8,269 nucleotides of DNA from Kiritimatiellia bacterium (GTDB taxonomy: Bacteria > Verrucomicrobiota > Kiritimatiellia > RFP12 > UBA1067), in contig JAKSOY010000199.1 in the NCBI GenBank assembly GCA_024405255.1, positions 1 to 8,269 of the forward strand, in the 5' to 3' direction. The notes beneath the pieces were generated by a model. That model searched no databases, was not told the origin of the DNA, and worked only from the letters and a program-made list of their open reading frames with translations. Shown here piece after piece: positions 2,690 through 8,210 of the stretch. Position numbers and translations under genes: made by a program. Every line of letters begins with the position of its first letter. Within the stretch, counting starts at the first letter, position 1.

Positions 2690-2697
2690 GGGTGATT

Positions 2698-2715
2698 TAT
2701 GATAAAATATACGGC
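2698..2715 (+). promoter_or_regulatory. Extended -10 promoter of the TPR-VWA-ribBA operon
   Basis: TATGATAAAAT (2698-2708) is a close match to an extended -10 element (TG at 2700-2701, one base, then TAAAAT at 2703-2708). No good -35 is present at the usual distance, which suits an extended -10 promoter. Transcription would begin at about 2715-2716, on the ATG of the next gene. It overlaps the upstream side of the divergent ssrA promoter. Confidence 0.5.
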
Positions 2716-4989
2716 ATGTTCAAACAACTCATAATTCTTGTTTTTCTCGCGGCCTCCCTTCCGCTCGCCGCGCAGTTGGCGTCGGCCCTTCCAACGGACC
2801 GTCTGGCACTCGCCAAACAGTTGGCGAACCGCGGTCTCTACGCGGAAGCGCTGAAGGAATTCGAGGCCATTCGCGGCGACACGTCCGTCCCGGGCGACGA
2901 GGTCTGCTATCGCCTCGGCGAAGCCTATCGCAGCGCGAAGCGCCCGAAAGACGCCCTTGCCGCCTACGACGAGCTGCTGAAGAAATATCCGCAGTCCCGC
3001 TTCGTCGACTTCGCCCGCCTGAACCGCGCACTCCTGCTAGACGGCGACGCCCGCACCAAGGAGCTGATGGCCCTCAACCATGTGGGCGCCTCCGAACAGA
3101 TCCGCGTGACCGCGCTCTACTGGCTGGGCGCCGCGGCCGAACAGGCCAAGGACCCGCGCTCGGCCCTCGTCTGGTACGAACGCGCCGCCGCCCTTTCGTC
3201 CACCAACGAAGTCGGCCGCCTTTCGCGTCTGCGCTGCGCCGGACTTCTCGCCGCCTCGGAGGACACCGCCGACCGCCGCAAGGCACAGGCCATCTATCTG
3301 GACATGTCGATGAGTGCAGACCAGGCGCTCGCCCAGGAAGCGCTCTATCTCGTCGCCATGCTGAGCTACCGCGAGGGACGCTACAAAGAGGCCGCCGACC
3401 TTTTCAACCGCCTCTCGACGCGCTTTCCGCAATCGCCCCGCATGAAGGAATGCAGTCTCTTCGCGGCCTGGTCCAACTACCTGTCGGGACGCTACGCCGA
3501 AACCCTCAAGCTCGCCGTGCCGTTGCGCGAGGCCAAGGTCGAGGACGCCTATTATCTGGTGGCCTCATCCTTGCGCTACCTCGAGCGCCGCTCGGACGCA
3601 CTCGACGCCTACACGCTCGCGCTCAAGGACTTCCCGAACGGCAAGCATGCCGACAGCGAATGGTTTGAACGCCTCAGTGTGCTCGCCGCCAACGGCGACC
3701 ACAAAGCCATCCTCGCCACGCTCGAGCAGCGTCCGCATCCGCCGAAGCGCATGGCCGCACGCGCCTGGAGCTACGGCTGCGAAGCGGCCATTGCCGTCAC
3801 CAATTTCCCGCAGGCCATTGAATACGCCCGTCTCGTCGCCGCCGAACCCGACGTGAAGACGGCCTCGAGCGCCGTGCATCGTCTGGCGTGGCTCTATGAA
3901 AAGACGAGCGACTGGCCGCGTTCCGCCCTCGCCTACCGTTCGCTCGCCGAGAAATGGCCGAACGATAAAATCGCCCCGCAGGCGCTCTACCAGGCCGGTG
4001 TCACGGAAACGCGCGCCGGTCGCCCGGAACAGGCGCGTGCCGACTGGACCAAGCTGCTCGCCAAATACCCCGACTCGCCTTTCGCCGGCGAGGCCCTCGC
4101 CTCCCGCGCAATGGCGGAACTGCGCGTGAAGGAATACCGCGCGGCCGAGCGTTCCATCTCCGAACTCGCCACACGCTTCCCCGACCGCGCCAAGACGGCG
4201 GAGATGCTCTACTGGTGGGGCGTCGCGGCGAACGGCATCGACGATGCGCCTGAAGCCGAGAAGCATTTCCGCGCCGCCCTCGTGGCCCATCCGACGGCGG
4301 AGTTCGAACGCGAGATCAAACTCGAGCTTGCGTCCATCCTGCAGAAGCGGAACGAAAAGCAGGAAGCCGCGAAGATCTTCAGCGAACTGTTGAACACGAA
4401 GGCCGTCGACCGGTTGCCGCCCGCCACGCTCGCGTGGGTTTCCGAATCGATGCTCGCCCTCACGAACTACACGGCCGCCTTGTCGGCGGCGAAGGTCATC
4501 GAGTCGCGCAAGCTCGATGCCGACTGGCAGCAAGTCGGCGCCACATTGGCCGGCATGGCCCACGAGGGACTTGACGAACGCGACGCCGCAACGGCCGCCT
4601 ACCAGCGCGCCCTCGCATCCGGCGCCCAGACCGTGCGCGGCGCCCAGGCCGCACTTGCACTGGGACGCATCGAATCCGCGAGCGGTCTCTTCGACGAGGC
4701 CAAGACGCATCTGTCGGACGCCGTCCAGCGTGCCGCCCCCCAGAACCTGCTGGCCCTTCGTCTGCAAGCCTACGTGGCGCTCGCCGCCAATGAAGAGGAA
4801 CGCGGCGACCTCGCGGCGGCCCTGGGCTATCATATGCTCGTCGGGACCTTGTTCGACGATGCCGAGGTCGTGCCTCATGCCCTCGCCCGTGCCGCCGCCA
4901 TCATGCGCAAGCAGGGCCGTGCCGCCGAAGCGACCAAGCTTGAGTCCGAGCGCAAACAGCGTTATCCGAAAGCCCCACCTGAGAAATGA
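2716..4989 (+). CDS. Exported tetratricopeptide-repeat protein
   Basis: The protein is 757 aa from the ATG at 2716, which gives a proper Sec signal peptide: MFKQLIILVFLAASLPLAA, with likely cleavage after Ala19 or Ala24. A GTG at 2692 is in frame but would put eight polar residues ahead of the signal and lies upstream of the probable transcription start. The rest is a chain of TPR-type helical hairpins, for example RLGEAYRSAKRPKDALAAYD, SYREGRYKEAADLFNRLSTR and TETRAGRPEQARADWTKLLA, many ending in a KYP/RFP/HP turn typical of YbgF/BamD-like periplasmic TPR proteins. Repeats run from near residue 25 to the C-terminus, with no enzyme domain. It probably acts as a protein-binding scaffold in the periplasm or at the outer membrane. 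The VWA gene starts 15 bases after its stop, so the two products are likely partners. It has no Shine-Dalgarno sequence and may be translated from a leaderless mRNA. Confidence 0.9.
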   Translation: MFKQLIILVFLAASLPLAAQLASALPTDRLALAKQLANRGLYAEALKEFEAIRGDTSVPGDEVCYRLGEAYRSAKRPKDALAAYDELLKKYPQSRFVDFARLNRALLLDGDARTKELMALNHVGASEQIRVTALYWLGAAAEQAKDPRSALVWYERAAALSSTNEVGRLSRLRCAGLLAASEDTADRRKAQAIYLDMSMSADQALAQEALYLVAMLSYREGRYKEAADLFNRLSTRFPQSPRMKECSLFAAWSNYLSGRYAETLKLAVPLREAKVEDAYYLVASSLRYLERRSDALDAYTLALKDFPNGKHADSEWFERLSVLAANGDHKAILATLEQRPHPPKRMAARAWSYGCEAAIAVTNFPQAIEYARLVAAEPDVKTASSAVHRLAWLYEKTSDWPRSALAYRSLAEKWPNDKIAPQALYQAGVTETRAGRPEQARADWTKLLAKYPDSPFAGEALASRAMAELRVKEYRAAERSISELATRFPDRAKTAEMLYWWGVAANGIDDAPEAEKHFRAALVAHPTAEFEREIKLELASILQKRNEKQEAAKIFSELLNTKAVDRLPPATLAWVSESMLALTNYTAALSAAKVIESRKLDADWQQVGATLAGMAHEGLDERDAATAAYQRALASGAQTVRGAQAALALGRIESASGLFDEAKTHLSDAVQRAAPQNLLALRLQAYVALAANEEERGDLAAALGYHMLVGTLFDDAEVVPHALARAAAIMRKQGRAAEATKLESERKQRYPKAPPEK

Positions 4990-5004: not shown

Positions 5005-7005
5005 ATGGTAGACAATTATGGCATTGCCGTTGAAGAGGAAGAATCCGAGCGCGCCGAATCGGGAACCCGTGGCGCGTTGCTCGCCTTCGTCCTGCTCCTC
5101 TCCTGCGCGGCCCACGTGGGATTGATGTACTCTTGTTCGGACTGCGCGTTCGCCCCCCTGCCCGGTGAAGTCAAGACGGACCGCAAATGGACCAAGCAGC
5201 TTCCGACCATGCAGGTCAAGAAGATGACCGAGGATCCGCTCGTGCGCGCCCTTCACGAGGCGCGTCCCGTCGCCGCCCCCGTGGTGGAGCAGCAGGAACA
5301 GCTTGTGAACCGCCTCGCCCCGGTGACGGAAAGTTCGCTCACGCCGGAACTGCCGCGTGCCGCCTCAACAGCACCGACGGCCGACACCATACCCGAACCG
5401 GCCAAGGCAGAAGCTGCAGCCTGGCAGCCCCGCCAGGAGATCGCCGCTATCGAGGTCCCGGTCGTCAAGGACGAAGAAGCCGCCCTTCCGCGTCTCGTCA
5501 TTCCGAAAGTCGACCGCGTCGCCAATGCCGCCGATATCGTACCGGCATTCGATCCGGCCATCCTGCCCACAGGACCCGATGGCGACGGCAAGGGCGGCGC
5601 CACGCGTGTGCCTAAGGCCACCTCGCTTGTCGCCGCCGTCGAGGAGGCGAACAACGTCGGCATCGCGCCGATCGCCCCGCCGGCCGCACTTCCCCCTCCT
5701 CCGACGGGACTGGGCAACGGCGGTGCCACGGGGACCAACCCGCAGCAGTCGTTGACGGCGATCGCCGCCGCCGAAAAGGCTTCGCTGACAGCCGACCTCA
5801 AGTCGGATGAAGCCAAGAAGGCCGAAGAAGCCGCCAAGAGGCTCAAAGAAACGGCCTCCACCAAACCGCCACCGGCGCCCGATGCCGCGGCGACTGTGGA
5901 CGAGAAGGTCATCGCCCAGGAAAAGGAAGCGGTCAAGACCCTGCGCGACGAGACCGCCGTGCAAGGTGCGCCCTTCGACAAGAATGTCTCTTTCGGACTC
6001 GGCGCCTGGGTTGATCCCGCCCACCCGAAGGAGAAGTATTTCCGCCTGACGATGAACAGCAAGTCCGACAATCCGCTGCCGGTCATTTCAAAGGACATCG
6101 TCTATCTGCTCGACGCATCCGGGTCGATTGCCAACGACCGTCTGAAATACTGCCGCAAGGCCGTCTCGAAAGCCTTGACCCTGCTGAATACGGGCGACCG
6201 TTTCAACATCATCGCCTTCCGCGACAAGTTCACCTACGCCTTCAACGATGTCGCCTGGAAGGAAGTCTCCGAAAAGTCGCTCGACCAGGCCGAGGAATTC
6301 ATGTTCCATCTCACCGCCCATGGTCAGACGGACGTCTTCCGCACCTTGCGCGGCGTGCTCGCCATGCCCCGCGATCCGGCACGTCCCGTCGTGGCGCTCG
6401 TCATCACCGACGGCGAAGCGACAAGCGGCATGACGCAGAGCGCCGAAATCATCTCGAAGTTCAACGAGCTCAACGGCGGCCTCATCTCCGTCTACATGTA
6501 CGGCGTCAAGGAAAACGCGAACGCCTACTTGATGGACATGGTCACACGCGGAAGCCGTGGCAGCTGGTACCGCCACGAAGGCATGCGCTGGACGGCGGCC
6601 AGCGGCATCCCCACGCTCGCCAAGAAGTTCGAGCGTCCCGTTCTCACCGACATTTCGGTGCTCTTCGCGTCTTCCTCGCGCGCCGAAACCTATCCGCAGC
6701 TCGTCTCGCATCTCTGCGAAGGCGAACCGCTTGAAATCTACGGGAAGTGTCCGGCCGATCAAAAGGAACTCGTCTTCTCCATGCGCGGCCTGAACGGCGC
6801 CAAGGTTTACGAGAACGTCTTCCGTCTCTCGTTCGGCAAAGCCCAGCCGCTGAAGGATACGACGCGTACGGAATGGGCCCAACGGCGTATGTACGCCCTC
6901 ATCGCGGCCTACACGCAAAAGCCCGATCCGCAGCTCAAGCGCGAGATCCATGCCTTTGCCAAACAGTATCAGATTCAAATTCCCTACGAAAAGGAAATCA
7001 AGTGA
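5005..7005 (+). CDS. VWA-domain protein with a TonB/TolA-like membrane anchor
   Basis: This 666-aa protein starts at the ATG at 5005, with GGGAG (4991-4995) upstream. Residues 1-23 are acidic and probably cytoplasmic. Residues 24-42 form one membrane helix with S33-x3-H37, the spacing of the Ser and His that TonB and TolA use with their proton-driven partners. CSDC (44-47) follows at the periplasmic face. Residues from about 50 to 250 are Pro/Ala-rich and extended, and about 253-285 form a Lys/Glu/Ala helix like TolA domain II. The VWA domain begins near 364 with a full MIDAS set: D370-x-S372-x-S374, T442 and D469, so it should bind a divalent metal and a ligand. The C-terminal part (LTDISVLF, CEGEPLEIYGKC, EWAQRRMYALI, AKQYQIQIPY) resembles the tail of VIT-VWA proteins, but no VIT domain is present. 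It is probably a periplasm-facing adhesion or scaffold protein working with the TPR protein. Energy transduction is inference from the anchor alone. Confidence 0.88.
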   Translation: MVDNYGIAVEEEESERAESGTRGALLAFVLLLSCAAHVGLMYSCSDCAFAPLPGEVKTDRKWTKQLPTMQVKKMTEDPLVRALHEARPVAAPVVEQQEQLVNRLAPVTESSLTPELPRAASTAPTADTIPEPAKAEAAAWQPRQEIAAIEVPVVKDEEAALPRLVIPKVDRVANAADIVPAFDPAILPTGPDGDGKGGATRVPKATSLVAAVEEANNVGIAPIAPPAALPPPPTGLGNGGATGTNPQQSLTAIAAAEKASLTADLKSDEAKKAEEAAKRLKETASTKPPPAPDAAATVDEKVIAQEKEAVKTLRDETAVQGAPFDKNVSFGLGAWVDPAHPKEKYFRLTMNSKSDNPLPVISKDIVYLLDASGSIANDRLKYCRKAVSKALTLLNTGDRFNIIAFRDKFTYAFNDVAWKEVSEKSLDQAEEFMFHLTAHGQTDVFRTLRGVLAMPRDPARPVVALVITDGEATSGMTQSAEIISKFNELNGGLISVYMYGVKENANAYLMDMVTRGSRGSWYRHEGMRWTAASGIPTLAKKFERPVLTDISVLFASSSRAETYPQLVSHLCEGEPLEIYGKCPADQKELVFSMRGLNGAKVYENVFRLSFGKAQPLKDTTRTEWAQRRMYALIAAYTQKPDPQLKREIHAFAKQYQIQIPYEKEIK

Positions 7006-8210
7006 TTTCGGAATCCCCTGCGTTCGACACTGTCGAGGACTGCCTCGCCGCGCTTCGCCGTGGCGAGATCATCGTGGTGACCGACGACGAAGACCGCGAA
7101 AACGAGGGCGACTGCATCTGCGCCGCCGAGTTCGCCACACCTGCAAACGTCAATTTCATGGCGAGCCACGCCAAGGGCCTCATCTGCATGCCGATGTCGG
7201 CGGCCTGGTGCGCAAAGCTCGATCTGCCGCAGATGGTCACGACGAATACGGACAACCATCAAACGGCGTTTACCGTCTCGATCGATGCCGCCGAGACAAC
7301 GACCGGCATCTCCGCAACCGAGCGCTCGATGACCGCACTCGCGACCGTGCGAGACGGAACTCGACCTTCGGACTTCCGTCGTCCCGGCCACATGTTCCCC
7401 CTTCAGGCGCGCGCGGGCGGTGTGTTGAAGCGCGCCGGACATACGGAGGCGACCGTCGACCTCTGCCGTCTTGCCGGACTCAAGGAAGTCGGCCTCTGCT
7501 GCGAAATCATGAAGGACGACGGCACGATGGCCCGTCTGCCCGAGCTGACGCGCTTTGCAGCAGAACACAAGCTCAAGTTCATGACGATCGCCGATCTCAT
7601 CGCCTATCGCCGTCGAACCGAAAAGCTGGTTGAAAACGTCGTCGAGGAAGTCGACCTGCCGACCGACTGGGGCCACTTCCGCCTGCGGATGTACAAGTCC
7701 CTCACGACCGGACTCGAACACCTGGTTCTGCTCAAGGGCGACTACGCGAACGGCGAACCCGTGCTCGTGCGCGTTCATTCGGAATGCTTCACGGGCGATG
7801 TGCTCGGCAGTGAGCGGTGCGACTGCGGCCACCAGCTGCACAACGCCATGCGCATGATCGAGCGCGAGGGTCGCGGCGCGATTCTCTATATGCGCCAGGA
7901 AGGACGCGGCATCGGACTGCAGAACAAGTTGCGTACCTATCACCTGCAGGAAAACGGCCTTGACACCGTCGAGGCCAACGTGCGTCTCGGCTTCGCCCCC
8001 GACCTGCGTGAATATGGCGAGGGTGCCCAGATTCTCGAAGATCTCGGCATCCGCCAGATCCGCCTGCTTACGAACAACCCGTGCAAGGTCAAGGGACTCG
8101 CCGGCTACGGCATTGAAATCACCGAACGCGTACCGATCGTCGTGCCCGCCAACGAACACGACAAGCGCTATCTTGAAACGAAGAAAGAACGCATGGGCCA
8201 CCTCATTTGA
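7002..8210 (+). CDS. ribBA: Bifunctional DHBP synthase / GTP cyclohydrolase II
   Basis: This enzyme performs two first steps of riboflavin synthesis: ribulose 5-phosphate to 3,4-dihydroxy-2-butanone 4-phosphate, and GTP to the diaminopyrimidine precursor. The start is GTG at 7002, overlapping the VWA stop as GTGA, with AAGGAA (6991-6996) five bases upstream. The reading frame is open further upstream, but that part overlaps the VWA gene. At 402 aa it has the usual RibBA length. The RibB domain (1 to about 203) shows TDDEDRENEGD (27-37), TTGISATERS, DFRRPGH, RAGHTEATVDL and DDGTMARLPEL. The RibA domain (about 215-400) shows VHSECFTGDVLGSERCDCG with zinc ligands C262, C273 and C275 at the spacing of the E. 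coli enzyme, then MRQEGRGIGL and LLTNNPCKVKGL. Both halves look active. No FMN riboswitch precedes it. Its place behind two envelope genes ties it to their promoter by translational coupling. Confidence 0.97.
   Translation: MISESPAFDTVEDCLAALRRGEIIVVTDDEDRENEGDCICAAEFATPANVNFMASHAKGLICMPMSAAWCAKLDLPQMVTTNTDNHQTAFTVSIDAAETTTGISATERSMTALATVRDGTRPSDFRRPGHMFPLQARAGGVLKRAGHTEATVDLCRLAGLKEVGLCCEIMKDDGTMARLPELTRFAAEHKLKFMTIADLIAYRRRTEKLVENVVEEVDLPTDWGHFRLRMYKSLTTGLEHLVLLKGDYANGEPVLVRVHSECFTGDVLGSERCDCGHQLHNAMRMIEREGRGAILYMRQEGRGIGLQNKLRTYHLQENGLDTVEANVRLGFAPDLREYGEGAQILEDLGIRQIRLLTNNPCKVKGLAGYGIEITERVPIVVPANEHDKRYLETKKERMGHLI

Follow-up and report, generated by a model that had tools for sequence, protein, structure and literature searches.

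The VWA gene and its neighbours

The window, that is, the whole stretch of 8,269 nucleotides that was analysed, originates from a relative of gut Kiritimatiellia; cultured Kiritimatiellota, such as Tichowtungia and Pontiella, also exist. On the forward strand it carries a gene for a VWA protein, preceded by a TPR protein gene and followed by a RibBA gene, with the following features:

2692..4989, +: TPR protein with a signal-like N-terminus, directly 5' of the VWA gene; the start is possibly the ATG at 2716
5005..7005, +: membrane-anchored VWA/MIDAS protein P0001, 666 aa
5065..5136, +: N-terminal transmembrane (TM) helix, residues 21–44 (AF2 helix and hydrophobic stretch)
5101..5115, +: S33-x3-H37, putative TonB/TolA-type motor-contact pair (homologue conservation)
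5152..5964, +: Pro/Ala-rich linker, residues 50–320, mostly low-confidence, with short K/E/A helices at 252–283 and 300–316
5209..5217, +: M69-x-V71, candidate motor box, with M69 at His+32
5977..6996, +: VWA domain in an ITIH1-like beta-sandwich, plus C-terminal helices, residues 325–664
6112..6126, +: MIDAS DxSxS (D370, S372, S374)
6328..6330, +: MIDAS T442
6409..6411, +: MIDAS D469
7002..8210, +: RibBA; its probable GTG start and the stop codon of the VWA gene share nucleotides (GTGA)

The architecture proposed in the initial annotation was borne out. The single N-terminal helix bearing S33-x3-H37 and the Pro/Ala-rich spacer are both present, the latter with low model confidence; the TolA-like Lys/Glu/Ala helix is represented by short helices, which are a minor and variable element. 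The set of MIDAS residues in the VWA domain is complete, and the solved folds best matching the head are 4fx5, ITIH1, and ArnAB. No Pfam match to TonB_C or the TolA C-terminal domain was found in P0001, and the VWA head does stand where TonB and TolA have their own C-terminal domains. Like ITIH heavy chains, VIT-VWA proteins, and TIGR03788 sortase-target proteins, the window protein combines a VWA domain with a flanking beta-sandwich and a tail, but it differs from them in having no VIT domain match, in its TM anchor, and in the motor operon of its relatives; its TIGR03788 score of 118.6 bits lies below the cut-off of 551.65 bits. The exported nature of the TPR protein agrees with its signal-like N-terminus, in which no lipobox Cys was seen by eye. 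RibBA is a neighbour in the window clade and lies outside the conserved unit. No motor gene is linked to the TPR-VWA pair in the window, and the same holds for the loci nearest to it.

The reverse strand contains an HTH_3 gene and a Gp49/DUF891 gene with a 4-nt overlap (1004–1689), resembling a toxin-antitoxin pair, as well as a four-helix protein of the 23S rRNA-intervening-sequence type (1778–2128) and a tmRNA (2273–2624) with the tag ANNDYALAA.

Conservation of the Ser/His pair

Among the proteins that use ExbBD-type motors, TonB and TolA are the best known. The window protein resembles them in topology, in the Ser-x3-His of the TM helix, and in an M-containing stretch about 30 residues past the His. 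In cryo-EM structures of TonB-ExbBD and TolAQR, as described in the available part of PMC12215075, the corresponding residues (Ser16/His20 and Ser18/His22) contact TM1 of ExbB or TolQ.

The survey of homologues that had been set as a test of S33/H37 favoured the pair in all three unfiltered counts. S-x3-H lies within the N-terminal hydrophobic stretch in 229 of 241 proteins, namely, P0001, 120 listed of the 460 matches of a first search, and 120 listed of the 125 matches of a second one; 11 of the 12 misses have no TM helix (annotated start 3' of it, fragment, or fusion), and the remaining one, P0241, is a VIT-VWA protein. Among 81 loci (the window plus the best 80 of 379, whose titles name MAGs or uncultured isolates, many of them from gut or rumen), 76 have the pair; four of the others (L010, L053, L074, and L080) are cut at contig ends, and L029 has another N-terminus. 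A survey of the phylum gave 33 matches, of which 30 loci were taken in (G001, G009, and G115 being outside them); the pair was found in TM context at 25 of these 30 loci, which corresponds to 25 of 26 family members, since L137–L140 carry VIT domains and were excluded from family counts as VIT-VWA proteins. In the alignment of homologues, whose rows were picked for S-x3-H (P0087, P0089, P0090, P0109, P0119, and P0120 were dropped), the TM residues beside the Ser and His vary, while the pair itself is kept.

Two loci depart from this pattern and weigh against a motor-driven role. L133 (6194–7915) is a VWA family member that has lost the pair; the motor type is nevertheless present in its genome, with 144 bits. 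At L029 (4665–6314), the VWA half is fused in frame, via a K/E/R-rich helix, to a different, signal-like N-terminal region at a contig end; the fusion may be real, or the contig may be chimeric. Single-anchor VWA proteins are common, and P0001 could be an ordinary one of this kind (an adhesin, chaperone, or sensor), with a Ser/His pair that plays no part in a motor. L133, L029, and the background occurrence of S-x3-H among hydrophobic stretches at other N-termini (6 of 307) would suit such an anchor. However, the retention of the pair, with misses that are mostly cut or fused sequences, as well as the motor operon of relatives and the genome co-occurrence described below, makes an ordinary anchor highly improbable.

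The second half of the SHLS motif is not conserved: the window protein has C44 and A48 at the positions of the Leu and the second Ser, which counts against a force transducer, and among the 229 listed homologues with the Ser/His pair, these positions are L in 48 and S in 75. According to the available part of PMC12215075, both residues are also less conserved in Ton systems.

The linker contains a further possible contact. By eye, M69 has the same spacing from the His as M54 of E. coli TolA (His+32), while M49 of TonB is at His+29. M69 is kept in 176 of 191 rows, and M-x-[VILM] in 275 of 305 rows versus 41% in shuffles; no strand was predicted for M69-x-V71 in the monomer model. These data are suggestive of a motor box that could meet ExbD.

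Motor genes in relatives and across genomes

Among the 58 loci with at least 4.2 kb of upstream sequence (57 from the best 80 of 379, plus the window), the gene order ExbB-ExbD-TPR-VWA was found in 37, and the same TPR family precedes the VWA gene in 54, in line with the earlier emphasis on the TPR protein just upstream. Of the 42 linked loci, short ones included, 35 have a TPR/VWA overlap of 4 nt, and all 42 have a single ExbD ORF (E 1e-3, no filters). We designate the ExbB subtype preceding TPR-VWA as type C. A TM1 Ser that corresponds by eye to Ser34 of E. coli is present in 52 of 52 type-C ExbB rows fitting the N-terminal pattern, and the proton-carrying Asp of ExbD is kept in 53 of 53 hits with at least 140 bits (45 by pattern, 8 by eye), repeat fetches being included in both counts. 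The equivalent of E. coli Trp38 is mostly Leu in type C, which is a point against a force transducer, and therefore no Trp contact is claimed. When the neighbourhoods of the 81 loci (best 80 of 379, plus the window) were screened for an outer-membrane partner that is conserved, nothing proved as widespread as ExbB, ExbD, TPR, and VWA, the next family being present in 15 of 81.

The operon is not uniform, and this also speaks against the force-transducer reading: the VWA gene does not adjoin the TPR gene at L004, L006, and L007, and only L111 and L115 among the 26 family members fetched in the phylum survey have linked motor and TPR genes. In the L004–L007 subclade, a gene of family F17, not a TPR gene, lies upstream of the VWA gene.

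The position of the VWA gene in the operon would also fit a regulatory or assembly subunit that acts with the TPR protein to tune the ExbBD pair and carries no load, and signalling from the Ser/His residues to the ExbB pore has been put forward (PMC12215075, available part). Nevertheless, the length of the linker, about 270 residues, and the MIDAS of the head suggest reach and grip, and we consider such a subunit improbable.

The unlinked copies, including that of the window, may be explained by the genomic context of the motor. The order argH-ExbB-ExbD-TPR-VWA was found at L021, L022, L023, L026, and L043, while in five of the six window-side genomes (G001, G003–G006), argH-ExbB-ExbD is present with TPR-VWA or VWA elsewhere; the exception is G002, for which about 1 kb upstream was examined. 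Since the argH-anchored motor occurs both with and without TPR-VWA, the simplest reading would be that TPR-VWA moved and the same motor stayed behind argH. The VWA gene is unlinked in 8 of 12 genomes searched, and a type-C pair was found elsewhere in all 8. On a quick midpoint-rooted tree, at least five changes of linkage were counted among 62 rows of known state; therefore, linkage was lost, or gained, several times. A lineage without ExbB, ExbD, or TolQR, which would have reduced the anchor to a simple membrane helix, was not encountered, as all 12 genomes checked contain several ExbB and several ExbD genes.

Across the phylum, the VWA family was detected at E 1e-40 or better in 29 of 115 genomes. 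A type-C ExbB profile score of at least 119 bits was obtained for 29 of 29 VWA-positive versus 17 of 86 VWA-negative genomes, and a score of at least 150 bits for 18 of 29 versus 3 of 86, the cut-offs, four of which are reported, not having been fixed beforehand. Both the VWA-negative genomes with type-C ExbB and the incomplete recovery at 150 bits tell against the force-transducer reading, and the co-occurrence is not independent, because the genomes are related to one another and MAGs are numerous among them. We infer the window genome's own ExbBD pair from its relatives, a further reservation about the force-transducer reading. Altogether, the TonB/TolA-type anchor of the initial annotation stands in that the pair is near-universal in homologues, an ExbBD subtype is genetically tied to the family, and most observations that could have overturned it did not appear; L133, without the pair, and L029, with its different N-terminus, are where it does not hold.

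Possible function and relation to known systems

A special case of a force transducer would be a substitute for TonB or TolA, whose VWA head either drives a so far unrecognised receptor of the outer membrane or stabilises this membrane. According to the available part of PMC12204202, Tichowtungia has no discernible TolA or TonB, and three of the 12 genomes searched (G001, G003, and G010) have neither TonB_C (PF03544) nor receptor-Plug matches, an absence that is soft for MAGs. However, TonB_C over the cut-off and Plug matches occur beside the VWA protein in 8 of the 12 genomes, and G001, whose VWA protein (L001) is the nearest to that of the window among the loci (75% identity), has by eye a separate TolQ-TolR-TolA-like set at L083, TolB and Pal being outside that look. 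A TonB-receptor role as a general duty is weakened by the three genomes without Plug or TonB_C matches, and a TolA substitute by the set in G001; we regard the substitute reading as unlikely.

Two other loci contain motor genes. At L082 (1755–5231), ExbB-ExbD-ExbD precedes a TM protein that has a Pro-rich linker and gives a weak squalene-hopene-cyclase-like match, which at 25.0 bits is slightly below the cut-off; TPR-like genes lie in front by eye, and this could be another motor-driven device. At L092 (1365–7001), ExbB-ExbD is followed by a TolA-like coiled coil of 908 aa, whose TM helix contains S-x3-H, and then by a bacterial alpha-2-macroglobulin gene.

A Myxococcus gliding system combines a TolQR-type motor and the VWA adhesin CglB in one trans-envelope machine, but there the VWA protein and the motor anchor are separate proteins, and the relation to the window protein is one of analogy only. 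A much closer precedent are the vWA motor-driven force transducers proposed in June 2025 by Williams-Jones et al. from Tichowtungia aerotolerans (PMC12204202, considered here from its available part). They are described from PVC bacteria as having a Ser/His TM helix, a disordered, Pro-rich linker with a motor box, and a vWA C-terminal domain, often with TPR and tolQ/tolR-like genes in synteny, and no ligand or phenotype is reported for them in that part of the text. The window protein shares the Ser/His helix, the vWA C-terminal domain, and the TPR neighbour, and its low-confidence Pro/Ala linker with M69-x-V71 may correspond to the published one; the motor genes are linked in its relatives. 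The differences are that a tolR-like pair is frequent in the published class, while linked loci here have a single ExbD; that motor genes lie nearby, while the window copy is unlinked; that only half of the SHLS motif is present in the window protein; and that YfbK is the fold match named there, in place of the folds found here. The fit stands despite the missing paired tolR and second half of SHLS, because PMC12204202, as far as its available part goes, makes neither universal, SHLS being present in many but not all vWA transducers. The TPH-vWA family described in the same text is similar in its TM-tethered vWA and nearby tolQ-like genes; however, it has no SHLS, a helix Asp, and no ExbD gene, while helix 21–44 is free of Asp, and our linked loci contain ExbD.

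Therefore, by the traits described, the window protein is probably a further member of the published class and not of a new one, since the class is already in print in the available text of PMC12204202. The initial reading of the anchor is supported, and that of a VWA domain in place of the C-terminal one of TonB/TolA is right. Tichowtungia is absent from the named matches among the 120 of 125 listed in the second protein search. No further title or abstract joining vWA with a TonB/ExbB motor was found in a search of titles and abstracts, a search in which subscription journals and preprints were mostly uncovered. Beyond the available part of PMC12204202, the present data add broad Ser/His counts with their exceptions, the single-ExbD operon, an argH-anchored motor explaining unlinked copies, genome co-occurrence, and an ITIH-like head.

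The conservation of the Ser/His pair, the motor operon, the co-occurrence, and the combination in G001 of a TolQRA-like set with the lack of TonB_C and Plug make it very likely, on sequence grounds, that the window protein is a proton-motor-driven force transducer of the envelope, and the evidence that it has a proton motor of its own is strong. What is seen is a Ser/His TM helix, a long linker, and a VWA-sandwich head whose MIDAS is intact. A TPR gene is tightly linked to the VWA gene, and the operon of relatives contains a single ExbB and a single ExbD, the latter with its proton-carrying Asp. By analogy with the TonB-ExbBD and TolAQR structures, S33 and H37 would dock on TM1 of a dedicated type-C ExbB, and proton flow through ExbB/ExbD would drive the linker. 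Alone or together with the exported TPR protein, the VWA head could then grip a periplasmic or outer-membrane ligand via the MIDAS metal, and the motor would pull on or remodel this ligand, as TonB acts on receptor plugs and TolA on TolB-Pal; the ligand, the direction of the force, and the role of the TPR protein are what we infer. An adhesion or assembly function, as raised in the initial annotation, is conjecture. Since an integrin/ITIH-like beta-sandwich holds the VWA head, the metal-dependent grip might open or close under motor tension, and one may tentatively imagine, as a rather doubtful extension, a proton motor pulling a MIDAS metal clutch. Such a clutch would catch and release in a force-gated manner at the outer membrane, with a TPR adaptor and a dedicated ExbBD pair.

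The likely dedicated motor can now be named even where the genes are separated, and S33, H37, and D370 are residues that can be mutated, so that a function can be tested directly. If true, a metal-dependent grip driven by a proton motor would be a new way of applying force across the envelope.
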